DNA of 64,000 bases, from the NCBI GenBank assembly GCA_902631125.1, contig CACOXF010000002.1:52947-116946 (forward strand), read 5' to 3'. Shown in pieces: positions 32,070 to 57,512 of the stretch. The DNA comes from an uncultured Bacteroidota bacterium. Its GTDB lineage: Bacteria; Bacteroidota; Bacteroidia; Flavobacteriales; Flavobacteriaceae. Below the pieces are notes generated by a model. That model did not search any database, was not told where the DNA came from, and was given only the letters and a program-made list of their open reading frames with translations. Position 1 is the stretch's first letter, and each line of letters opens with the position of its first letter. The translations under genes and the position numbers were made by a program.

Positions 32070-34205
32070 CTAATCAACTATTATTTTCTTTGAAATATTT
32101 AACCCTTCTTTATTTGAAAAGAGAAAGAAATATAAGCCTTTTTTTAGGGAAGAAACATCTAATGAATTTGGTATATTTTGAAATTCCAATACTTTCTGCC
32201 CTCTAATATTAAAGGCAGTGAGTGAAGAGTCGCTTAGTTCATTTGGAATCGAAATATTAAGCACCTGATTATCTACAGGATTCGGGAACACTTTTACTCC
32301 TATTTCCTTATTATTTTCATTAGTCCCTAAAGACAAAAATGACCACGGGTAAAAATCTGGTCTCCAAGTAGCTCCTGCAGTCCAGGTGTCACCAATTTCA
32401 TAGGCTCCAATATCTGGCGCACTTCCAGAAAACCCATCATTAATTCCTGCAATAATTGTTCCAGCATCAATTAATTGTGTTGAAGTAGATTTCGGTGTGA
32501 AATCGTAATTATCTGGATCATTTAGTAGAGCCTTGATTCCGTAATCTGTACTAGTTGTTGAGTATATATTATGACTCACTGTGCCGGGAACTGTTTGCGG
32601 ATTTTGACGATGACCGGAAATTTTATCAGCTGCATTATTTTTTGTAATTGTCAATCCATTAGAACTCCCACCTGGAGGATTTGCATAAACCTCATACATA
32701 ACACTAATGTCATTGGTACTATTATCAAAACAAGTGTTGTTATAAATTTGCTGTTCGTCACCTTTTATCATTAACGCTTTACTTAAGTTCCACATTACAT
32801 TATGATGAATCAATCCTTTTTTTCCTGCCAATTCTGGATCGCTAACTGGTGCATCATAACGCGTTCCAGATTTCGGAGAATCGTGAAACCAATTGTGGTG
32901 CACCTCAGAGCCTTCAACTGACTCTCTTGTCATCTGAACTATAGAACCATCACTTTGTAAAGACCCAGTATTGTAAATATTGTTGTAGGACACTTCAGGA
33001 GAACCAATAAAATGTACTGTAGATGAAGCTCCTGTTGTATGTACCGTATTTCTTGTAAAAATTCCGTTATCACCATTATTCACCACTGTTGTCATCAAGT
33101 TTCTTAAAGAGGAAACTGTATAGTCTATATGATGAAAATAACAGTCTTCCACGATATTGTTTTTTCCAATCATATATAATGCGTCTCCGTCAGTATGCTC
33201 AAACAAACATTGGTATATTTTAAAGCCTGTATTAATGTTTTTGTTCTTCCCTTTTAATTCAGTTGTATGTGGTGAGCTTTTTTCTCCCAACATCCTTTTG
33301 GAACAACTTGGATAAGAAAACAAACAATTGTTTAATTCAATTTCTGAAGATCGGTTTGCTTTGACTGTAGTTGCAAAAAAGTTTAAGTTTTGTAATTTGA
33401 TATTTGAACAATTGTTCATTTCAAAAGCATAGGATTGTACCTTACCTTGAATCTTTTTCCCTGATGGGTTTCCCCAAACTGATAACTTTTTTGTTGAAGA
33501 ATCATAGAACCATTCGTTTTGGGTATCTAAAAAATCTATTTTTCTTTCCAAAAAATAATAATGATGTTTACTCAAGTAGCTTCCTGGCGTTTCATAATTG
33601 AATGTACCATTTCCTGGCGTATGTGATAAAACTTCAACTGTCCAGGTTTTCCAAGACCCTACATTTGCTATAGCCAAAGCACCTTGTGCATTAATTCCGC
33701 TAGCTGCTAAATTTCCAGAATCTACCATTGTACCATTCGAACCTGCATTAGCATCACCTGGTGACCAGTATGCTTGATCAAAAATTGTATCATCATGAAA
33801 CTGTGCATTTGGCCAACGTGCCATAACTTGCTGCTCGTCATCAATAAATAATTGCCAAATATCCTCGGTTAAAATAGTTTCGTAAATATTTGGATTAACA
33901 GAACTTTGAGTCCAAGTTGTTTCGATTGACTTGGTGCCGTTGATGATGACTTTTTCGTTAGGAAAAGCTTTGATAATAATATTATCTTTATTATTCATAA
34001 AAACATTTTCATGATAATAACCTTCCCTGATAATACAAGTGCCGCCAGATGCTCCCATAGCGTTTATTGCATTGTTTATCGTTAGAAAAGGTAGTGATTC
34101 TGTCCCAGGATTTGAATCATTACCTAGAGTTGAAACATAGTATGTTTGAGAATGTATTTTAATTGTTACAAATAACAAGAAAAACAAAAACATAATATTT
34201 TTCAC
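32070..34205 (-). CDS. Right-handed parallel beta-helix protein with T9SS C-terminal sorting domain
   Basis: TYYVSTLGNDSNPGTESLPFLTINNAINAM, IWQLFIDDEQQVMARWPNAQ, repeated N-rich rungs, C-term VFPNPVDNQVLNIS...GLYFFLFSNKEGLNISKKIIVD. Confidence 0.88.
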   Translation of the reverse strand: MKNIMFLFFLLFVTIKIHSQTYYVSTLGNDSNPGTESLPFLTINNAINAMGASGGTCIIREGYYHENVFMNNKDNIIIKAFPNEKVIINGTKSIETTWTQSSVNPNIYETILTEDIWQLFIDDEQQVMARWPNAQFHDDTIFDQAYWSPGDANAGSNGTMVDSGNLAASGINAQGALAIANVGSWKTWTVEVLSHTPGNGTFNYETPGSYLSKHHYYFLERKIDFLDTQNEWFYDSSTKKLSVWGNPSGKKIQGKVQSYAFEMNNCSNIKLQNLNFFATTVKANRSSEIELNNCLFSYPSCSKRMLGEKSSPHTTELKGKNKNINTGFKIYQCLFEHTDGDALYMIGKNNIVEDCYFHHIDYTVSSLRNLMTTVVNNGDNGIFTRNTVHTTGASSTVHFIGSPEVSYNNIYNTGSLQSDGSIVQMTRESVEGSEVHHNWFHDSPKSGTRYDAPVSDPELAGKKGLIHHNVMWNLSKALMIKGDEQQIYNNTCFDNSTNDISVMYEVYANPPGGSSNGLTITKNNAADKISGHRQNPQTVPGTVSHNIYSTTSTDYGIKALLNDPDNYDFTPKSTSTQLIDAGTIIAGINDGFSGSAPDIGAYEIGDTWTAGATWRPDFYPWSFLSLGTNENNKEIGVKVFPNPVDNQVLNISIPNELSDSSLTAFNIRGQKVLEFQNIPNSLDVSSLKKGLYFFLFSNKEGLNISKKIIVD

Positions 34206-43235: not shown

Positions 43236-44753
43236 TTGACATTCAATTCGACAACATTTTTAAAACTTTTTAACTGGTCTTTATATCTTTTATTCTTTTC
43301 GCTAATGTTAAGCTGCGGAAATTTTAAAAACAGTTTAAAAGAAAGTAAAACCAAAAACCAAAAACCTAATATTATATTCATTTTATTAGACGATTTGGGC
43401 AAGGAATGGATAAGTAAATACGATGCTGATGATATCGAAACGCCTAATATTGATCTTTTAGCAAAAGAAGGAATGCAGTTCAATAATGCATGGTCAATGC
43501 CCCAATGCACGCCTTCGAGAGTTACTTTTTTAACCGGTCAATATCCATTTCGCCATGGTTGGGTTAATCATTACGATGTGCCACGATGGGGTCATGGTGT
43601 AAATTTTGACTCGAATAAAAATCCAAGTTTACCTAAAATAATGCAGCAAGCAGGTTACAAAACCTGTGCTGCAGGAAAATGGCAAATTAATGATTTTAGG
43701 CTACAACCAACAGTTATGAACGACCATGGTTTTGATGAATATGCAATGTGGACAGGTGTCGAAGGTGGTAATGAAACTTTAAGCCAAGAGCGTTATTGGA
43801 ATCCTTACATCCATACGACAAAGGGGAGTAAAACCTACGAAGGGCAATTCGGCGAGGATATTTTTACTGATTTCATCATTGATTTTATGAAAAAAAACAA
43901 AGATGAACCAATGTTGATTTACTATCCAATGTGTTTACCTCACGGACCATTAACAACTACCCCTAGTGAACCAAAAGTTTCAGGGAAAATGGAAAAGCAC
44001 AAAGCCATGGTTCGTTATACAGATGAAATTCTTGGAAAACTCGTCACAGCAATTGATAATCTGGGTATTAGAAATAACACCATTATTTTTTGGACAACGG
44101 ATAACGGAACTTCTGGAAATATAACAGGACGACTTAATGGAAAATCCGTTAGGGGTGGCAAAACATATTTGACCGAAAATGGTGTCAACCAACCTTTTAT
44201 CGTCAACTGGCCTGGAAGAGTTCCAGCTGGTGTTGAAACAGACGCGCTAGTTGATTTTAGTGATTTATTGCCAACCTTTACTGACCTTGGAGATGCTTCA
44301 CTGCCAAAAGATTATCATTTTGATGGAAAATCTTTCAAGGATGTCATTCTAGGATACAAAACAAAAAGTGACCGAGAATGGATTTTAACTATGGGGTCAC
44401 TACCAGCTCGATTAAATTATAAGCGTGCTACTAACCTTCATAAGTTTAGAGATAGAGCTTTAAGAGATAGAAATTATAAAGTGTTTGTTGATACTCTAGG
44501 GCAAATATCTCATGTTTATAACTTAAGAATTGATGCAGAAGAAAAGGAGAACTTGATTAATTCAAATTCAAAAAAAATTAAACCCATTCTAAAAAAATTC
44601 AAAACTATAATATCTAATTTTCCACCTGAGGATGCACAACCCAACTACACTAAATTAAGTTATTCGATTTACGATATAAGTCCTGAAACACTAAATCAAA
44701 GAGCAGAAAAATCGAGAAAGAGGTCTAATCATGCTCCATTGGTTGAATATTAG
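43236..44753 (+). CDS. Sulfatase, predicted lipoprotein (TTG start in ORF track)
   Basis: Lipobox-like LMLSCGN; NIIFILLDDLGKEWISKYD, PQCTPSRVTFLTGQYPFRHG, AGKWQIND, WTTDNGTSGN. Confidence 0.93.
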   Translation: MTFNSTTFLKLFNWSLYLLFFSLMLSCGNFKNSLKESKTKNQKPNIIFILLDDLGKEWISKYDADDIETPNIDLLAKEGMQFNNAWSMPQCTPSRVTFLTGQYPFRHGWVNHYDVPRWGHGVNFDSNKNPSLPKIMQQAGYKTCAAGKWQINDFRLQPTVMNDHGFDEYAMWTGVEGGNETLSQERYWNPYIHTTKGSKTYEGQFGEDIFTDFIIDFMKKNKDEPMLIYYPMCLPHGPLTTTPSEPKVSGKMEKHKAMVRYTDEILGKLVTAIDNLGIRNNTIIFWTTDNGTSGNITGRLNGKSVRGGKTYLTENGVNQPFIVNWPGRVPAGVETDALVDFSDLLPTFTDLGDASLPKDYHFDGKSFKDVILGYKTKSDREWILTMGSLPARLNYKRATNLHKFRDRALRDRNYKVFVDTLGQISHVYNLRIDAEEKENLINSNSKKIKPILKKFKTIISNFPPEDAQPNYTKLSYSIYDISPETLNQRAEKSRKRSNHAPLVEY

Positions 44754-44845: not shown

Positions 44846-45196
44846 ATGAAGGTTATGAAACATATTATCACTCCAATCGTTTTATTATTCATTACAATTT
44901 CGGTCTCTGCCCAATCTAAAGAAGAAAAAAAAGCTCAGAATAGAACTGATGAAATTGTTAAAGTATTATCGCTTGACCAAGAAGAAACTGTAAAAGTATA
45001 CGAAGCGCTTTTAGCGAAGGAAAAAAAGATTACTGTTTTAAAAGAAAAGCACAAAGACAATCAAGAAACTTTCAAAGCTGAAATGAAGGCATTATCTAGA
45101 GCTACAAACCGTGTTATGAAAGATTTCCTGGGAGGGGATAGAATGATGAAAATGCATGCACATTTTAAAGCAAAAAGGGAAAATTCTAAAAAATAG
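44846..45196 (+). CDS. Small secreted helical protein (116 aa), divergent member of a three-copy family in this window
   Basis: Signal peptide ITPIVLLFITISVSAQ; highly charged; shares LLAKEKKITVLKEKHKDNQETFKAEM...NRVMKDFLGGDRMMKMHAHFKAK with the 51756 N-terminus and 54371. Confidence 0.75.
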   Translation: MKVMKHIITPIVLLFITISVSAQSKEEKKAQNRTDEIVKVLSLDQEETVKVYEALLAKEKKITVLKEKHKDNQETFKAEMKALSRATNRVMKDFLGGDRMMKMHAHFKAKRENSKK

Positions 45197-45238
45197 AGTT
45201 ATATTTCTTAAGTATCCTTGGTTCAAAATTTTTTGACT

Positions 45239-46765
45239 ATGAAAGTCATAAATAATATCCTCTTTAAGTTTATAATAATCATTGTTGGTGCGAACCTAAC
45301 TTCTTGTAATACCAATTCACAACATAAAAGCACAGCAAAAGAAACGTTGACTGCAAGCTTAAACGAGAAAAAACCCAACATACTACTTTTTTTTACTGAC
45401 GACCAAGGAACCTTAGATGCTGGGTGCTATGGCGCATCTGATATTCAAACACCAGTTTTAGACAAGTTAGCCACTCAAGGAATAAAATTTACACAAGCCT
45501 ATGGTCATACGGTTTGTTGTCCCTCTAGAGCTGCACTTTTAACCGGCCGTGCGCCACAACGTAGTGGCGTTAATCAATGGACCTCTTGTCATCCCGACGA
45601 CTACGAGGGTCGCGTAATGGATCTTAAAGAAATTACAATTGCTGAGCATTTAAAATCCTATGGCTATAAGACTGGATTAATTGGAAAGTGGCATCTGGGA
45701 GCGACAATGGATCATGGGCCTTTAGATCAAGGGTTTGATGAATTCTTTGGTTTTAGAGGCGGTTTTATTGATTATTATTCTCATAAATTTTTACATGCGA
45801 ATTGGCAAAGACCACAATTCCATGATCTCTATAGAAATAAAGAGGAGATATTTGAAGACGGAAAGTATTTTCCAGATATGCAAGTATCAGAGGCTAACAA
45901 ATTTTTAGAAGAAAGTAAAAATGAACCTTTCTTCCTTTATGTTTCGTTTAGTCTACCGCATTATCCTGAGCAACCAGATTCAACCTTTGTAAAACAATAT
46001 AAACATCTTGAATGGCCCAGAAGCTCTTACGCTCCAATGATTACAACTCTTGATCATAGAATGGGACAAATTTTAGAAAAATTAGATGAGCATGGATTAA
46101 GAGAAAACACCATAATAATTTATATGAGTGATAACGGACACTCAACTGAAGATTATTATAACTGGAATGAAAGTTATGGAGGAAATGGTGGAGGTGGCTT
46201 TACTGGAAAATGGAGAGGTGCAAAAGGAAGCTTATTTGAAGGCGGCATTAGAGTACCAGCGGTAATAAGTTATCCTAAATTATTTCCGCAAGGTGAAATA
46301 AGAGATCAAGCAATTGTAAATCTTGATATTCTACCTACCATTTGTGACATACTTGATATTCCAAACCCAAAGAATAAACTCGACGGCAAGAGCATTTTAG
46401 ATATAATAAAATCTGATGAAGCTAAATCGCCACACGAAGTTTTGCATTGGATGTGGCAAGGTATGTGGGCAGTTAGAAAAGGAAAATGGAAACTTATTTA
46501 TGATGGTCATGATACCACAGGAAAGTTCTCTATTCATCCTGAAAAAGAATTTGAAATGCCTGAATACTACTTAGCCAACTTAGATGATGAAAAACCAGAA
46601 GAAATAAACTATGCATTGAAAGAGCCCAAAATATTAAAAGAATTACTTACACTTCACCAAAGTTGGGCAAAAGATGTCTTTGAGGGTTCTGGTTACCCAG
46701 ACCCAAATTCAGTAGAAGGGAAAAAAGAAAAAATTATTAAAATGAAGGGAACTACCAAATTGTAA
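45239..46765 (+). CDS. Sulfatase, predicted lipoprotein (start at 45239; ORF opens at TTG 45218)
   Basis: Lipobox-like NLTSCNT; NILLFFTDDQGTLDAGCYG, TVCCPSRAALLTGRAPQRSG, IGKWHLGATMDHGP, YMSDNGHST. Confidence 0.94.
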   Translation: MKVINNILFKFIIIIVGANLTSCNTNSQHKSTAKETLTASLNEKKPNILLFFTDDQGTLDAGCYGASDIQTPVLDKLATQGIKFTQAYGHTVCCPSRAALLTGRAPQRSGVNQWTSCHPDDYEGRVMDLKEITIAEHLKSYGYKTGLIGKWHLGATMDHGPLDQGFDEFFGFRGGFIDYYSHKFLHANWQRPQFHDLYRNKEEIFEDGKYFPDMQVSEANKFLEESKNEPFFLYVSFSLPHYPEQPDSTFVKQYKHLEWPRSSYAPMITTLDHRMGQILEKLDEHGLRENTIIIYMSDNGHSTEDYYNWNESYGGNGGGGFTGKWRGAKGSLFEGGIRVPAVISYPKLFPQGEIRDQAIVNLDILPTICDILDIPNPKNKLDGKSILDIIKSDEAKSPHEVLHWMWQGMWAVRKGKWKLIYDGHDTTGKFSIHPEKEFEMPEYYLANLDDEKPEEINYALKEPKILKELLTLHQSWAKDVFEGSGYPDPNSVEGKKEKIIKMKGTTKL

Positions 46766-48550: not shown

Positions 48551-49696
48551 TCAAATTAGTTTACTTTGTAAATCATTGATTTTTGCACAACTTAGCTGCT
48601 CCATGACTTGAGTTAATTGTGTTTTTAGCATCGAAACTGTATGATGGCCCCCTTTTTTTCCAAGAGCAGAAACACCATACATAAAAGTACGACCTAAAAA
48701 ACTAAAATCTGCTCCACTAGCCATCACTCGCGCCACATCAGCGCCTCCACGAATACCACTATCCATCATCACAGTTAACTTTTCTTTGTAAATTGGTGCA
48801 ATGTCTTTTAATGAATCTATAGTAGCTTGACCAACGTCAACTTGACGTCCACCATGATTGGAAATGATAACTCCGTCTAAGCCCAATTGATACGCTTTTT
48901 GTACATCATGAGCAGACTCAGCTCCTTTGAGCACTAATTTGCCTTTCCACAGATCACGAATCTTTTTGATTTTTTCTTCGTTTAATCGACCCGAAAACGT
49001 AGCGTCCATAAACTTCGCAAGTTGATTTAGGTTTAAGTTTTTTGACATATATGGCTTTAGTACCTCGAAACTTGGTTGACCATGAATTAGAGTTTGCAAT
49101 GCCCAATGGGGTCTTTTAACTGCATTAATAATATTGGTCATAGTCATTTTAGGTGGCATGGACAAACCATTTCGAATGTCTCTAGGGCGATAACCAAAAG
49201 AAGGGACATCTGCAAGAATGATTAATACGGGGCATCCAGCCACTTCAGCGCGTTTCAAAATATCTTTGGTGATTCCTTCCTCTGCAGGGTGATAAAGCTG
49301 AAACCATGCATTACCTTCTGTAATTTTTGAAATTTTTTCAATGTCAGCTGTGGTAACGGTACTTAAAACAAAAGGGATATTGTGTTCAAATGCTGCCTTT
49401 GCTAGTATCTCTGGTGACTTGGGCCACATCAGTCCTTGCAAGCCGATTGGAGAAATTCCGAAGGGTGCGTCGTATGTATGTCCAAAAAGTTCCGTTTTTA
49501 AGCTTGGTGGGGTATAGTCAATTAAGTATTTTGGCTTTAATTCCACAGCTCGAATCCGGTCTGTGTTCTTTTTTAGGTTTACATCATCGTTACACCCTCC
49601 ATCTAAATAATCAAAAGCAAATTTTGGAATTTTTCTTTTTGCACGTGCTCTAAGATCTGATACAGAAGGGTATTTATAATTTATCTCTAACTCCAT
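48551..49696 (-). CDS. FMN-dependent alpha-hydroxyacid dehydrogenase (L-lactate dehydrogenase/glycolate oxidase family)
   Basis: IPKFAFDYLDGGCNDDVNLKKN, APFGISPIGLQGLMWP, LVLKGAESAHDVQKAYQLGLDGVIISNHGGRQVD, MMDSGIRGGADVARVMASGADFSFLGRTFMYG. Confidence 0.94.
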   Translation of the reverse strand: MELEINYKYPSVSDLRARAKRKIPKFAFDYLDGGCNDDVNLKKNTDRIRAVELKPKYLIDYTPPSLKTELFGHTYDAPFGISPIGLQGLMWPKSPEILAKAAFEHNIPFVLSTVTTADIEKISKITEGNAWFQLYHPAEEGITKDILKRAEVAGCPVLIILADVPSFGYRPRDIRNGLSMPPKMTMTNIINAVKRPHWALQTLIHGQPSFEVLKPYMSKNLNLNQLAKFMDATFSGRLNEEKIKKIRDLWKGKLVLKGAESAHDVQKAYQLGLDGVIISNHGGRQVDVGQATIDSLKDIAPIYKEKLTVMMDSGIRGGADVARVMASGADFSFLGRTFMYGVSALGKKGGHHTVSMLKTQLTQVMEQLSCAKINDLQSKLI

Positions 49697-49859
49697 TCAT
49701 TTTTATTTAAGCCATATATTTTATACATCAACCCTATCTTCTTAAAAAAAGATTCCAAATCTGTTGAAAGAAAATCTTTTTGTATCACAGACATCGACTG
49801 GTTAATCCATGCATTCCTAATAAAGTTATTATTCCAGAAATTGTGATAACTGTCAATGA

Positions 49860-50714
49860 TCATTTATATGCTTTACATGATTGCCTTGCAATGCCCAAAC
49901 CATCTATCCCCAGTTCGATTACATCTCCTTCTTTAAGAAATCGTGGAGGATTTAAACCTAACCCAACTCCGAAGGGTGTTCCAGTTGAAATAATATCTCC
50001 AGGAAGTAAGGTCATAAATTGACTGATGTAGCTAACGACTTTTTGAACATCGAATATGAAATCTGATGTATTACTATCTTGCATTATTTCTCCATTGAGC
50101 TTTAACCAAAGATTTAAGTCATTGGGATTTTCAATTTCATCTTGTGTAGCGATAAATGGACCCAGTGGAGCAAAAGTGTCACAGCTTTTTCCCTTTACCC
50201 ATTGACCTGATTTTTCCAGTTGAAATGCTCGTTCACTAACATCATTGTGTAAAACATAGCCTGCAACGTGACTAAGTACATCTGCCTCGGGCACATATGA
50301 TGCTTTCTTACCAATCACAACAGCTAATTCTACCTCCCAATCTGTTTTTTCACCCCCCTTAGGAATTACAATTGGATCAAAGGGACCTACTATGGCAGAA
50401 GTAGATTTAAAAAAAAGTACAGGTTCTTCGGGAATATCCATACCACTTTCAGCAGCATGCTTTGCATAGTTTAATCCAACACATACTATTTTTGAAGGAC
50501 GACTCAAAGGGGATCCCAATCTGATATCATCATGAATTTCTGGGGAAGAATCTTGATTTTTTGACAACCAATCTTCCAATTTCTGAATTCCATCATTTCC
50601 AAAAAAGTTTTCATCATAATCTGTTACAAAACCTGAAACATCTATTTTTTTTCCATTTGATAAAATTACACCTGGTTTTTCTTTATTGATTTCTCCAAAT
50701 CGAATAAGTTTCAT
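49860..50714 (-). CDS. Fumarylacetoacetate hydrolase family protein; candidate 2,4-diketo-3-deoxy-L-fuconate hydrolase
   Basis: KIVCVGLNYAKHAAESGM, PVLFFKSTSAIVGPFDPIVIP, DWEVELAVVIGKKA, GDIISTGTPFGVGLG. Confidence 0.9.
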   Translation of the reverse strand: MKLIRFGEINKEKPGVILSNGKKIDVSGFVTDYDENFFGNDGIQKLEDWLSKNQDSSPEIHDDIRLGSPLSRPSKIVCVGLNYAKHAAESGMDIPEEPVLFFKSTSAIVGPFDPIVIPKGGEKTDWEVELAVVIGKKASYVPEADVLSHVAGYVLHNDVSERAFQLEKSGQWVKGKSCDTFAPLGPFIATQDEIENPNDLNLWLKLNGEIMQDSNTSDFIFDVQKVVSYISQFMTLLPGDIISTGTPFGVGLGLNPPRFLKEGDVIELGIDGLGIARQSCKAYK

Positions 50715-50721
50715 AATTAAG

Positions 50722-51510
50722 TTATTTTGAATTGAGTGTTATAAAGCCGCCATCAATTCCGTAGTTTGAACCTGTAATAAAACTCGCTTCATCACTGCAT
50801 AAAAACAATGCCAAGTCTGCTATTTCTTGTGGCTTTCCCATGCGACCAAGAGGTTGTGTTTTTGAAAGTTTATCAAAAATTTCATCTTCCTTACCAGTAT
50901 AATTTTTCCTTATAAATCCATCTACAAAAGGAGTGTGAACTCGAGCTGGAGAAATACAATTACAACGGATATTATGGTCGATGTAATCTTTAGCAATTGC
51001 ATAAGTCATTGTTAGAACAGCGCCTTTGGACATTGAATATGCAAAACGATCTGATATTCCAACAGAAGATGCGATAGAGGCTAAATTTAGAACTACCCCT
51101 CCGCCATTGATTTTCATAAGGGGAATACAAGCCTTTAAACAATTAAAAACTCCTTTAATATTGATATTGTAAAGTCTATCCAAATCTTCTTCCTCACACA
51201 TTTCAATATTTCCTACATGAGCGATACCAGCATTGTTTACTAAAATATCAACCGATGATTTTTGTGAAATTTTCTTTATAACACTTGATACTTGATCTGA
51301 ATTTGAGACATCACACTTATATGATTTGGATTTATATCCTTCATTATTGATTTCAAAAACCACATCAGCAGCGGCTTTTTCATTGTAATCAAGTATGTGG
51401 ACATACGAGCCTTGCATTGCAAAAGTTTTTGCGATTGCTCTGCCAATGCCACTTCCTCCCCCGGTAATCAAACTTACTTTATTTTTTAAGGAAAATTTTG
51501 GTTCCATCAT
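50722..51510 (-). CDS. Short-chain dehydrogenase/reductase; candidate 2-keto-3-deoxy-L-fuconate (or L-fucose) dehydrogenase
   Basis: LITGGGSGIGRAIA, NNAGIAHVG, YSMSKGAVL (YxxxK), ITGSNYGIDGGF. Confidence 0.9.
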   Translation of the reverse strand: MMEPKFSLKNKVSLITGGGSGIGRAIAKTFAMQGSYVHILDYNEKAAADVVFEINNEGYKSKSYKCDVSNSDQVSSVIKKISQKSSVDILVNNAGIAHVGNIEMCEEEDLDRLYNINIKGVFNCLKACIPLMKINGGGVVLNLASIASSVGISDRFAYSMSKGAVLTMTYAIAKDYIDHNIRCNCISPARVHTPFVDGFIRKNYTGKEDEIFDKLSKTQPLGRMGKPQEIADLALFLCSDEASFITGSNYGIDGGFITLNSK

Positions 51511-51755: not shown

Positions 51756-54251
51756 ATGAAAAAAGTTATCTTATTGTTTATTGGATTTACTATTACTATT
51801 AATGTAAATGCACAACCAAAAGCAGAAGTCTACGCAAAAGAAAACACAGAAAAATTATCAGAAATCTTAGAATTTACAGTGGCTGAATATACTCAGGTTT
51901 ATGATATACTTGTGGAAAAAGAAACTGAATTTAACGTTCTTAGAAAAAAGTATAAAGACTATAAGGATACATTAAATTCGGAAATTCAAAGACTAAATCC
52001 AATATACAACAGAAGGTTAAAGGATATCCTTGGGCAAGATAGAATGATTAAATATCATGATTATTTCAAAGCAAAATACAATGCTTATCTAAAATCAAAA
52101 AAAAGTAAATCTAAAGACAAGAAAGTACGTTTAACAGTTACCTCCTTTTACGTGTCCCCTGAAGGAGAAGATTCTAACCCGGGAACTTTTAATAAGCCTT
52201 TTAAAACAATTTCAAAAGCATCAAAAGAAATGCAGGCTGGTGATACATGTTATATTCGAGAAGGAATTTATCATGAAATAATCGAGTTGTATGAAACCCA
52301 TGGAAAATTCACTTCACCTATAACCTTTAAGGCATACAAGAACGAAAATGTTGTTTTAGATGGAACCGAATTAATAAAAACAAATTGGAGAAAGTACAAG
52401 GGTGATATTTATAAAGCTAAAATCAAAAAAGATATCTGGCAATTATTCGTAGATAAAAAAAGTATGACTTCAGCTAGATGGCCAAATGGAAATTGGTATG
52501 ATGGATCCGTTTGGGACAAAACCAAATCGATGGCTTGGCCTGAAAAAGAAAGAAGTAGTTATGGACATCACTTCAATAAAGAATTAGCATTGATAAATGA
52601 GGACTTAACAGGAGCAATTATTCTTGTAAATTCAGGTTCATTTAAAACTTTTAAGTCTAATGTGATTGAGCATAGTCCCAATACTGACAATTTTAAATAC
52701 GACACTAAAAGAAAAGGGATAAAAGTACATTTCAGCTATGAAGGCAAAGAGGAAAGACACGGTTATTTTTTAGAGGGTAAATTAGGTTTATTGGATGAAG
52801 AAAATGAGTGGTTCTACAATGCAAAAAGCAAGACAGTTTATCTATGGGCTCCCAAAGGAAGACATCCCAGAGGATTTGAAATTAGAGGAAAAACACAATC
52901 CTATGCATTTGATATTCAGAACTCATCACACATAAAAATTGAAGGTATAAATTTCTTTGGAACAACTTTTAATACTTATGAAAGTAATCACATAACTGTC
53001 GAAAATTGCAATTTCAAATACCCAAGTTATTCAAAGCGGATGTTGAATGATCTGTCCCAAATAAATGTAACTTCTATGTTGATGAAAAAGAATGAAAGTG
53101 AAGCATTTAACATTATTAGAAATTGCAAATTTGAATATATGGATGGGCCAGTTATTAATATGAATGGTTCTAACAATGTAGTTGAAAATAATTATATGCA
53201 CTCTATTGATTATAGCTGCACTTTTAGAGGAGGCTATACCATAAACATGTTACGATCAACTGATTTACTATTTAGAAGAAATACTGTACATACTGCTGGA
53301 GCTTCTGAAATGTATAAAGCAGGTGCTAGAAACACTATTGAGTTAAATAATTTATTTCGTTCAGGATATCTACAGAATGATGGATCGCTCATACAAATAA
53401 GTGCTAAGGAACAAGATCAATCTCAAACACGCTACAATTGGGTACACAATTCAGTAAAAATAGGATTACGTTTTGATAATTCGAATCTCCCAAATTCCCG
53501 TTGGGGTGAGAATGGAAGTATGCACCATAATGTTGCCTGGAAAACAGATAGAGTTTTCTTTAAAGGAGACAAACATTTTATATATAATAATTTAAGTTTC
53601 GATAATCGTCTTAATGATTTAATTGTGTCAAGCAAAGTATCTATTCAAGGAAGAAATTATGAGACAATTACAAGAAACAATATTTCTAATAAATTTTCTG
53701 GACATAGAACGAGACCAGGTAAGGATTATCCAGTTCCTGGGATAGTTGATCATAACTGGTCTGGTAATTTTAAAAATGCCGATATAAGAAGTCAATTAAG
53801 AGACCCTGATAATTTAGACTTTAGACCCAAAAAAGACTCTGAGCTAATAGATAATGGAGCACTTATTGAAGGAAAAGAGATAACATATTTAGGAAAAGCA
53901 CCAGATATAGGTCCTTATGAGTTTAGCGATATAAATTATTGGATTCCAGGATTCCAAGATAAAATAGCTTCAACACCAGTTCCCCCTAATGAATCTAAAA
54001 CAGTTAAAACTGATGCAGATTTAATGTGGCTAAAGGCATATAGGGCTGATACAAGTGATATATATTTTGGTGAAAATTTTAACAATGTATTGAATGCATC
54101 TAAAAACTCACCCGAATATAAAGGAAATCAAGAAAACAATATCTATTCTCCTGGAAAACTAAACACTGGAAAAACCTACTATTGGAGAATAGATGAAATA
54201 ATCAAAAATAAAATTCAAAAAGGAAACGTTTGGAGCTTCAAAGTTAAATAG
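51756..54251 (+). CDS. Chimeric secreted protein: small helical domain + right-handed parallel beta-helix + C-terminal FN3-like module
   Basis: N-term about 115 aa nearly identical to 54371..54721; then FYVSPEGEDSNPGTFNKPFKTISKAS, IWQLFVDKKSMTSARWPNGNWYDGSVW and rungs; C-term SDIYFGENFNNVLNAS...YSPGKLNTGKTYYWRIDEI...GNVWSFKVK. No T9SS sorting domain seen. Confidence 0.85.
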   Translation: MKKVILLFIGFTITINVNAQPKAEVYAKENTEKLSEILEFTVAEYTQVYDILVEKETEFNVLRKKYKDYKDTLNSEIQRLNPIYNRRLKDILGQDRMIKYHDYFKAKYNAYLKSKKSKSKDKKVRLTVTSFYVSPEGEDSNPGTFNKPFKTISKASKEMQAGDTCYIREGIYHEIIELYETHGKFTSPITFKAYKNENVVLDGTELIKTNWRKYKGDIYKAKIKKDIWQLFVDKKSMTSARWPNGNWYDGSVWDKTKSMAWPEKERSSYGHHFNKELALINEDLTGAIILVNSGSFKTFKSNVIEHSPNTDNFKYDTKRKGIKVHFSYEGKEERHGYFLEGKLGLLDEENEWFYNAKSKTVYLWAPKGRHPRGFEIRGKTQSYAFDIQNSSHIKIEGINFFGTTFNTYESNHITVENCNFKYPSYSKRMLNDLSQINVTSMLMKKNESEAFNIIRNCKFEYMDGPVINMNGSNNVVENNYMHSIDYSCTFRGGYTINMLRSTDLLFRRNTVHTAGASEMYKAGARNTIELNNLFRSGYLQNDGSLIQISAKEQDQSQTRYNWVHNSVKIGLRFDNSNLPNSRWGENGSMHHNVAWKTDRVFFKGDKHFIYNNLSFDNRLNDLIVSSKVSIQGRNYETITRNNISNKFSGHRTRPGKDYPVPGIVDHNWSGNFKNADIRSQLRDPDNLDFRPKKDSELIDNGALIEGKEITYLGKAPDIGPYEFSDINYWIPGFQDKIASTPVPPNESKTVKTDADLMWLKAYRADTSDIYFGENFNNVLNASKNSPEYKGNQENNIYSPGKLNTGKTYYWRIDEIIKNKIQKGNVWSFKVK

Positions 54252-54339
54252 TGTTTTCAAATATGTAATTAAATATTTAATTTATGTGTATACTCACTGA
54301 CTTGTTTCAGAATAAAACATCATTTTGAAGTAAAAAGAT

Positions 54340-54347
54340 TAAATTTG
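54340..54347 (+). promoter_or_regulatory. Candidate -7 promoter element TAAATTTG upstream of 54371
   Basis: TAnnTTTG match 24 nt upstream of ATG; no -33 element at canonical spacing. Confidence 0.3.
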
Positions 54348-54370
54348 ATATAATATTAATTAATTAAAAC

Positions 54371-54721
54371 ATGAAAAAAATATACTTATTATTGTTCGGG
54401 TTTGTTCTTACCAGTGCTTTAAATGCCCAATCAAAAGCAGAAATTTTTGCTAAAGAAAATACAGAAAATTTATCAGAAATCCTAGAATTTACAGAAGCTG
54501 AATATACCAAGGTTTATGATATACTTGTTGAAAAAGAAACTGAATTCAACGTTCTTAGAAAAAAGTATAAAGACGATAAGGATAAATTAAAGGCGGAGAT
54601 TCAAAAACTAAATCCAATATACAACAGAAGGTTAAAGGATTTCTTAGGACAAGAAAGGATGATAAAATATCATGATTATTTCAAATCAAAATACAAAGCT
54701 TATTTAAAATCAAAAAAATAA
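54371..54721 (+). CDS. Small secreted helical protein (116 aa), stand-alone paralog of the 51756 N-terminal domain
   Basis: Signal peptide YLLLFGFVLTSALNAQ; ILVEKETEFNVLRKKYKDDKDKLKAEIQKLNPIYNRRLKDFLGQERMIKYHDYFKSKYKAYLKSKK. Confidence 0.8.
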   Translation: MKKIYLLLFGFVLTSALNAQSKAEIFAKENTENLSEILEFTEAEYTKVYDILVEKETEFNVLRKKYKDDKDKLKAEIQKLNPIYNRRLKDFLGQERMIKYHDYFKSKYKAYLKSKK

Positions 54722-54776: not shown

Positions 54777-57512
54777 TTACTTTATAAATTTTTTAGTTGA
54801 AACTGCTCCGTTTTCTCCTAACAATTTTAAAATATAAGACCCTTTAGGAAAAGCTGATGTGTTAATACTCCCATCAGCTTTTTCTTCTTTTAATTTTTGA
54901 CCAAGCGAATTATAGACTTCAATATATTTTACCCCCTCAGATATATAATTTAATACATCCATTGCCGGATTTGGATATATTAACACACTTGAACCATCTT
55001 TTGCAATGTCTTGAGTTGCTAAAGTTGCGCCACCAGTAACAGATGTTGTTATACCATCTATTTGCGTAATCCCATCCACTTTCCCAAATTCAAGAAACAA
55101 AGAAAGGTTGTAATCTGCTGCAGCTGGAAATGTAAAAATCTTAGTTATATAAACCCAAGTATCAGTAGTAAGTAGAACACGTTGTGTTTTATCCACAAAA
55201 CCTTTATCTGTTTGTTGTTCGTTTGCATAGTCCAATGAGCCAGTATCCTTTATTAATAATCTCATATCCCCATCTGCAACCTCACTTCCTGGATCAATAT
55301 CAGATGTTTTTGCCCAAAATGAAACTGTTATGTCAATGGGATTTGTGTTATCTCCGACAAATGCATATTCTGTGTTTATCAGTCTTATACCCCATTCTTG
55401 ATTATTAATATTTACTGAAGTAACCTCTAAAGCTTTAGTTCCATCTCCTGGGTGAACATTAGCTGTTTGTATGCTTGCTGAAACTCCTGAGCCATCAGAA
55501 TATGGCCCTCCTAATTTCCAATCGTTAAGTGTTTGATTTTTAATTATAGTTCCAACTGAGCCATCTTCAAAACTTGGGTTTACAACAAAACCACTAACGT
55601 TTTGTTTGTAAGAGAAAGACCATGGATAAAAATTTGGAGTCCAACTAGCTCCAGCTGTCCAATTATCTCCAAGTTCATAAGCACCTATTTCTGGAGCAAT
55701 ACCTAAATAAGTATCTGTTATTCCAGAAATAATAACTCCTGCATCTATCAATTCAATAGCTGAACTTTTGGGAGTGAAGATTTTATTTTCTGGATCTGCT
55801 AACAAAGCTCTGCTATTATAACTATAATTTGTTTCTGAATATACATTATGATCTTCCGTTCCTGGTGGGATTTGAGGATTTTGACGATGCCCAGATATTT
55901 TCCCTGCTAGATTATTTCTTAAAATTGTAGAAGTATTTGAGCTTCCCCCTGGCGGATTAGGATAGCTTTCATCCAAAATTGTATAATCAACTCCAGCAAT
56001 ATCAAAAGAGGTATTATTATATATCTCATGTGAGTCCCCTTTAATCATCATAGCCTTTGGTAAATTCCAAAATACATTGTGATGTACTAATCCGTTTGTG
56101 CCTGCTAATTCAGGATTTGATACTGGTGCATCATAACGCACTCCAGTTTTTACAGAATCATGCAACCAATTATGGTGTATTTCTGATCCAGGAACACTTG
56201 TTTGCCCTGGTAGCTGGACTAGTGCCCCATCATCTTGTAACATACCGGTTTTAGAAATATCATTGTATGAAATTTTTGGAGCATCTCCCAAACTTAATAC
56301 TGAAGAAGCACTAGTTGTATGTACAGTATTATTTTTAAATGTACAATTTGACCCCTTGTTTATGATAGAATTTTGCAAATACCTAAGTGAGCCACATGAA
56401 TAGTCAATATGATGAAAATAACAATCTTCAATAATATTATCTTGTCCATGTAAGAAAATCGCTTCACCGTCAGTATGTTCAAATAAACATTGAAAAAATT
56501 TAAATCTTCCTGGTTGATTTTCATGGCCATGTGCTTGTCCGTTTGATAATTCTGTTGTTAATGGATAAGAAGTAACACCCAACATTCTTTTTGAACAACT
56601 AGGAAATGAAAACAAGCAATTATTCACTGTAATATTATTAGAGCCAGTTGCAAAAATTGTAGTCGCAAAGAAATTTAAATTTTCTATTACAATATTTGAA
56701 CAATTATTCATTGTTAATACATATGACTGTACTTTTCCTCTAATTTCTTTTCCTGTTGGATCTCCCCACACAGATAATTTTTTTGTGGTTGCATTATAAT
56801 GCCATTCGTTTTGAGTATCAAGCAAATCAATTTTACCCTCTAAATAATAATAGTGGTGTTTATCAAGATAAGTTGGAGCAGGCACGTAGTTGAAAATATT
56901 ACTTCCGGTTGCATGAGAAGTTATTGGCACTACCCAGGTTTTCCAAGATCCAACATTTGCTATGGCTAGTGCACCTTGCGCATTAATTCCACTTGAAGCA
57001 AGATTTTCAGGGAAACTAACATCATTCATAGTCCCATTAGAGTCCAAGTTGACATCACTCTCAGCCCAAAAATCTAGGTTATAAATACTTTCGTCAATAA
57101 ATTGAGCATTGGGCCAACGAGCCATTACCTGTTGTTTATCATCAATAAATAATTGCCAAATATCTTGACTTAAAATGGTTTCATAAATTGAAGTACTTTC
57201 AGAGCTTTGAATCCAACTTGTTGAAATTTCTACAGTACCATCTAAAATAACTACATCATTGTTGTAAGGTTGAATTGTAATATTATTTTTTTCGTTTATA
57301 ATAATATTTTCGTGATAAGTGCCTTCCATTATAAAGCAGTTTCCACCTAACGCGCCAAATGAATTCAATGCTTTAGAGATGGTTTCAAAAGGTAAAGACA
57401 CGCTACCAGTATTTAAATCGCTTCCATCTTTAGATACAAAATAATTATTCTGAGCAAACACACCAAAAGCACTTGAGGCCAGAACAAAAAACAAGAATCT
57501 TTTTTTATACAT
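54777..57512 (-). CDS. Right-handed parallel beta-helix protein with an inserted beta-sandwich-like module and T9SS sorting domain
   Basis: NNYFVSKDGSDLNTGSVSLPFETISKALNSF, IWQLFIDDKQQVMARWPNAQ; module VNPSFEDGSVGTIIKNQTLNDWKLGG...; C-term VLIYPNPAMDVLNYIS...GSYILKLLGENGAVSTKKFIK. Confidence 0.88.
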   Translation of the reverse strand: MYKKRFLFFVLASSAFGVFAQNNYFVSKDGSDLNTGSVSLPFETISKALNSFGALGGNCFIMEGTYHENIIINEKNNITIQPYNNDVVILDGTVEISTSWIQSSESTSIYETILSQDIWQLFIDDKQQVMARWPNAQFIDESIYNLDFWAESDVNLDSNGTMNDVSFPENLASSGINAQGALAIANVGSWKTWVVPITSHATGSNIFNYVPAPTYLDKHHYYYLEGKIDLLDTQNEWHYNATTKKLSVWGDPTGKEIRGKVQSYVLTMNNCSNIVIENLNFFATTIFATGSNNITVNNCLFSFPSCSKRMLGVTSYPLTTELSNGQAHGHENQPGRFKFFQCLFEHTDGEAIFLHGQDNIIEDCYFHHIDYSCGSLRYLQNSIINKGSNCTFKNNTVHTTSASSVLSLGDAPKISYNDISKTGMLQDDGALVQLPGQTSVPGSEIHHNWLHDSVKTGVRYDAPVSNPELAGTNGLVHHNVFWNLPKAMMIKGDSHEIYNNTSFDIAGVDYTILDESYPNPPGGSSNTSTILRNNLAGKISGHRQNPQIPPGTEDHNVYSETNYSYNSRALLADPENKIFTPKSSAIELIDAGVIISGITDTYLGIAPEIGAYELGDNWTAGASWTPNFYPWSFSYKQNVSGFVVNPSFEDGSVGTIIKNQTLNDWKLGGPYSDGSGVSASIQTANVHPGDGTKALEVTSVNINNQEWGIRLINTEYAFVGDNTNPIDITVSFWAKTSDIDPGSEVADGDMRLLIKDTGSLDYANEQQTDKGFVDKTQRVLLTTDTWVYITKIFTFPAAADYNLSLFLEFGKVDGITQIDGITTSVTGGATLATQDIAKDGSSVLIYPNPAMDVLNYISEGVKYIEVYNSLGQKLKEEKADGSINTSAFPKGSYILKLLGENGAVSTKKFIK

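Follow-up and report, generated by a model that had tools for sequence, protein, structure and literature searches.

A small gene for a predicted secreted helical protein is fused to the 5' end of a beta-helix enzyme gene in the window (the whole 64,000-nucleotide stretch of DNA analyzed here), and this fusion is genuine, recent, and restricted to one lineage of marine bacteria. The reading favored here, held with slightly less than even confidence, is that a Spy-like helper in a sulfated-fucan-type locus was made the N terminus of a GH141-like enzyme, which would have turned an existing helper-enzyme partnership into a permanent one. A probably periplasmic helical protein that is normally encoded by a separate gene beside sulfatases, in clusters for the digestion of algal sugars, would thereby have become the enzyme N terminus and would supply the signal peptide, and as a Spy-like partner it would hold, stabilize, or assemble the enzyme. 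The features of the fused gene and its neighbors are as follows.

51756..54251, + strand: fused gene, open reading frame of 831 aa, with identical architecture in the orthologs of genomes G001, G010, and G002
Residues about 1-20: signal peptide of the fused gene
Residues about 21-116: small helical domain
Residues 117-129: polar linker
Residues about 130-730: beta-helix enzyme domain
Residues about 740-831: C-terminal domain, Fn3-like by appearance
51756..52103, + strand: N-terminal small-protein domain including the signal peptide, 79% identical to 54371-54718, with helices modeled at high confidence
52104..52142, + strand: junction and linker SKSKDKKVRLTVT, residues 117-129, with AG at 52104-52105
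52143..54251, + strand: beta-helix and C-terminal domain, GH141-like fold in the model, with unfused orthologs elsewhere of about 720-745 aa
54371..54721, + strand: stand-alone small helical protein, probably secreted, open reading frame of 116 aa, three predicted helices (model pLDDT 88)
54777..57512, - strand: paralogous beta-helix protein, 911 aa, unfused, with its own signal peptide and a type IX secretion tail

Both open reading frames of the original prediction were confirmed at 51756-54251 and 54371-54721, and the near match that it described between their products was real, with 79% amino acid and 86% nucleotide identity between residues 1-116 of the 831-aa protein and the 116-aa stand-alone protein (E=6.7e-56, genome search). 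The junction had also been read correctly, as TCA AAA AAA AGT AAA TCT in the fused gene and TCA AAA AAA TAA ATT TTT in the stand-alone copy, and the AG at 52104-52105 is present. The fused gene was found in four genomes of the same genus (G000, G001, G010, and G002) at 91 to 96% identity, at full length, and with an identical junction, which rules out the AG as an artifact of sequencing or assembly. The beta-helix protein thus uses the signal peptide of the small protein through a real fusion, as had been proposed. The linker was modeled at low confidence and is probably flexible. A separate enzyme product from an internal start was rejected on reading the sequence, as the linker contains no Met and such a product would have no signal peptide.

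Outside the genus, beta-helix orthologs were found in two Polaribacter, AG_MB154 (Flavobacteriaceae), Colwellia, another gammaproteobacterium, a Phycisphaerae, and Bacteroidales. All 10 orthologs with the N terminus covered (a count that leaves out the fragment L081) were unfused and carried their own signal peptide directly before a YYVS-type motif, which confirms that the unfused arrangement exists elsewhere. Searches with the small-family profile in 400 genomes family-wide and 396 genomes phylum-wide returned no fused match outside the genus, and all matches there lay in frames of 78 to 260 aa. The fusion is the derived state, with the small gene on its own as the ancestral arrangement. In Polaribacter and AG_MB154 (L071, L072, and L073), the genes follow the order beta-helix, sulfatase, and stand-alone small gene, from which the fusion partners appear to have been near neighbors before fusing. 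Within the flanks searched around the Colwellia, Phycisphaerae, and Bacteroidales beta-helix orthologs, the small gene was not found, so the enzyme does not depend on it everywhere.

The unfused orthologs share a hydrophobic signal peptide of roughly 20 residues just before the conserved YYVS motif. At the corresponding place in the fused gene there is just SKSKDKKVRLTVTS, a run of about 14 codons that are mostly polar, and the maximum hydropathy before the motif was 0.5, compared to 2.5 to 2.6 in the unfused orthologs. By comparison with VYQLKATEYYVA in Polaribacter, the segment VRLTVTSFYVS may be a leftover of the enzyme's own N terminus. Because the enzyme start, the signal core, and the spacer are all gone, a deletion or recombination is needed, which would have brought the small gene, from about its stop codon, together with the part of the enzyme gene that begins right after the signal peptide. 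Such an event appears to be the simplest account and a better fit than the 2-nt insertion before an ancestral stop that had originally been suggested, since an insertion would leave the start and signal peptide of the enzyme in place. The fusion would predate the split between the G002 lineage and the G000/G001/G010 lineage.

Removal of the AG does recreate an in-frame TAA, but as a stop remnant this is not significant, since at 32% of the codons of the fused gene there is a 2-nt deletion that produces a stop in frame at once, and the match beyond the TAA was no better than in dinucleotide shuffles (P 0.12 to 0.76 over 7 to 56 nt). The alignment of the flanks taaatct and taaattt, which had been taken as an ancestral trace, is at chance level, and a remnant of the old stop past the junction was ruled out for the same reason.

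Two histories that give the next-door stand-alone copy a different place were weighed against deletion or recombination. In one of them this copy is the parent, and a tandem copy of it came to lie against the beta-helix gene and lost its stop through a 2-nt insertion of AG. It is consistent with the TAA that AG removal restores at the very codon where the stand-alone gene ends, and with other free-standing relatives that stop at about the same place. It leaves unexplained the missing start codon, signal peptide core, and spacer of the enzyme and gains nothing from the chance-level similarity beyond the stop or from 2-nt stops as frequent as those counted above; it is very unlikely. In the other, the stand-alone gene at 54371-54721 is the daughter, formed in the G000/G001/G010 lineage when the fused 5' part was copied downstream and gained a new stop. 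This is possible, if on the doubtful side. It is favored by G002, which has the fused gene and neither the stand-alone copy nor a remnant of it, and by the best protein tree, in which the other six domains group to the exclusion of that of G002 (88/59 support). The AU test, however, keeps a single clade of the four fused domains (p 0.26 for protein and 0.33 for DNA), and the stop of the stand-alone gene lies at about the position used by other free-standing relatives. Most of the adjacent 911-aa gene is gone from G002 as well, which makes a deletion of the stand-alone copy there plausible. The synonymous distances (dS 0.53 between stand-alone and fused copies, 0.40 between fused copies across the G002 split, and 0.32 in the enzyme part) lean against a daughter copy and hint, in 85% of bootstraps for 0.53 against 0.40, that the stand-alone and fused forms separated before the G002 split, as the AG insertion would have it. 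Protein and DNA trees and AU tests did not settle the order of the fused and stand-alone copies. The original prediction of the stand-alone form as the parent therefore stands in so far as the free-standing form is ancestral, while parenthood of the next-door copy itself is unproven, given the fused gene of G002 without it.

The stand-alone copy at 54371-54721, found in G000, G001, and G010 and missing from G002, was almost invariant across the three genomes (dS 0 to 0.016, compared to 0.03 to 0.07 in the adjoining enzyme part). The fused domain of G000 (51756-52103) has several nucleotide states of the stand-alone copy (54371-54718) that are missing from its closest relatives, and dS between G000 and G001 was 0.21 in the small domain and 0.07 in the enzyme part. 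The shared states form a mosaic and not a clean gene-conversion tract; gene conversion or recombination with the stand-alone copy is possible from this pattern. In G002, the counterpart of the 911-aa gene (L014, 3745-4383 and 4384-4676) is cut down to a 212-aa frame that keeps the signal peptide and a C-terminal binding-type domain, and the DNA beyond a stop still carries secretion-tail sequence.

Purifying selection acts on both parts of the fused gene. The dN/dS of the N-terminal domain was 0.15 to 0.36 in nearly all pairs (one very close pair gave 0.80 on few changes), and that of the enzyme core was 0.07 to 0.20. These values bear on the idea that the helical part is a passive passenger without a role and that the fusion only swapped the signal peptide of the enzyme. 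The small domain does evolve faster than the enzyme, with dN of 0.13 to 0.15 compared to about 0.03 for G002 against the others, as a passenger might. Its dN/dS is nevertheless well under 1, and all four genomes keep its frame open at dS of about 0.3 to 0.4, which makes a passenger quite improbable.

For the small protein, three long helices were predicted (pLDDT 88), and its N terminus is a hydrophobic signal-like segment with a maximum hydropathy of 2.8 over 12 residues. None of the small proteins of the window scored above the Pfam cut-off, sequence searches of Pfam, NCBIfam, and PDB with the small protein gave nothing convincing, and among the PDB matches that Foldseek gave for its model, none was confident and none was Spy. 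The profile of the small family matched that of its phylum-wide relatives with an hhalign probability of 99.4 (E=2e-21). Of 17 such relatives, 11 matched DUF4890 and 8 matched LTXXQ, and a PDB search with their profile hit E. coli Spy (3oeo, E=5e-7). The two LTxxQ motifs are absent from the small protein, with LTxxE and LGxExM in their place, the glutamine being changed to glutamate. By profile, the small domain is a putative divergent relative of the DUF4890/LTXXQ (Spy-like periplasmic) superfamily. In the library of papers searched, there was none on DUF4890.

The window carries a large polysaccharide utilization locus with numerous sulfatase genes, a SusD-type gene with a SusC-type neighbor, two GH141-like and three other beta-helix genes, and two putative GH29 fucosidase genes; the GH29 and SusC assignments were made by reading the sequence. 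Upstream of the fused gene, a third homolog of the small protein, absent from the original prediction and 39% identical, lies between two sulfatase genes.

43236..44753, + strand: sulfatase gene 5' of the third homolog, sulfatase family by similarity
44846..45196, + strand: third small-protein homolog, stand-alone, 116 aa, between the two sulfatase genes
45218..46765, + strand: sulfatase gene 3' of the third homolog, sulfatase family by similarity

This divergent copy is also kept in G001, G010, and G002. The three genes at 48551-51510 read as a short-chain dehydrogenase, a fumarylacetoacetate-hydrolase-type protein, and an FMN-dependent alpha-hydroxy-acid dehydrogenase, and these readings suggest a sugar-acid pathway for the oxidation of fucose to lactate and pyruvate.

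The association of the small family with such loci was counted in 20 stretches around its best relatives outside the immediate genus and in 20 control stretches from the same genomes. A sulfatase lay within about 6 kb in 10 of the 20 stretches around relatives compared to none of the 20 controls, and SusD in 7/20 compared to 1/20, in counts that are not independent because several of the 20 stretches are related loci. The weaker relatives L130-L133 showed no link to sulfatase or SusD. In other Flavobacteriaceae, small-protein relatives (L114-L119, L122, L123, and L015) adjoin sulfatases and, at several of the loci, SusC/SusD as well; the gene that comes next often encodes a protein with a type IX secretion tail.

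Most likely, the fused protein degrades glycans in the periplasm with a Spy-like helper permanently attached to it; we infer the partnership from the fusion and the gene order, and the chaperone-like role from the superfamily. The main rival to the helper role is a glycan-binding one, in which a basic surface and a lysine-rich tail would hold anionic polysaccharide near the enzyme in the manner of a CBM. The tie of the small family to sulfatase loci agrees with it, as do the mature small proteins, which are mostly basic (net charge +4 to +18) with lysine-rich C termini. The net charge is, however, -1 in the fused domain of G002, 0 in G378, and only +4 in the fused domain of the window, a basic charge is also frequent in more distant relatives that lack such loci, and no known glycan-binding fold was matched, so that glycan binding is unlikely. 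With regard to the helper role, it can be proposed only tentatively that marine sulfatase loci own dedicated Spy-like periplasmic helpers and that the fusion reveals the client of one of them, a beta-helix glycan enzyme that now carries its chaperone or assembly factor as a domain.

Among the products of polysaccharide loci are many small secreted proteins without an assigned function, and the fusion ties one such family to a defined enzyme. Together with the pre-fusion gene order kept in relatives, it makes a helper hypothesis for sulfated-glycan enzymes directly testable, and for evolutionary study it offers a clean and recent fusion whose unfused orthologs are available. By itself it is of modest interest; as a hint at the working partners of unstudied small proteins, it is worth more as a pointer.

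The beta-helix part appears GH141-like in the structure model and lies in a fucan-type locus. The best structural match of the domain was the GH141 enzyme BT_1002 (5mqp, Foldseek E=9e-18) from a model with a mean pLDDT of only 59.5, and the score for the Pfam GH141 insertion domain PF21231, 17.2 bits, did not reach the cut-off of 27. The best sequence match was the GH120 xylosidase XylC (3vst), in an alignment that covers the first ~100 residues of the beta-helix domain (E=3e-11). The fused enzyme has no type IX secretion tail, whereas the paralogs at 32070-34205 and 54777-57512 have one; with a signal peptide and without such a tail, the fused protein probably acts in the periplasm. In a recent report, GH141 members of the fucoidan-degrading Wenyingzhuangia fucanilytica are endo-fucanases, and the catalytic aspartates of BT_1002 are D523 and D564 (PMC12786026).

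Compared to known systems, the small protein resembles the Spy/CpxP superfamily (LTXXQ PF07813 and DUF4890 PF16231) in being small, probably secreted, and all-helical by prediction, and is connected to it by the two-step profile link. The LTxxQ-type motifs of Spy/CpxP have LTxxE and LGxExM at the corresponding places in the window protein. Unlike Spy/CpxP, it has no direct Pfam match above the cut-off, and the fold search with its model did not lead confidently to Spy; its family sits in polysaccharide loci and, here, is also fused to an enzyme. Beyond the first ~100 residues, the window beta-helix has no sequence alignment to GH120 XylC. With GH141 BT_1002, an alpha-L-fucosidase, the fused enzyme shares the parallel beta-helix, and this GH141-like enzyme belongs to a locus with fucosidase-like and sulfatase genes; unlike its unfused orthologs, it bears an N-terminal helical domain.
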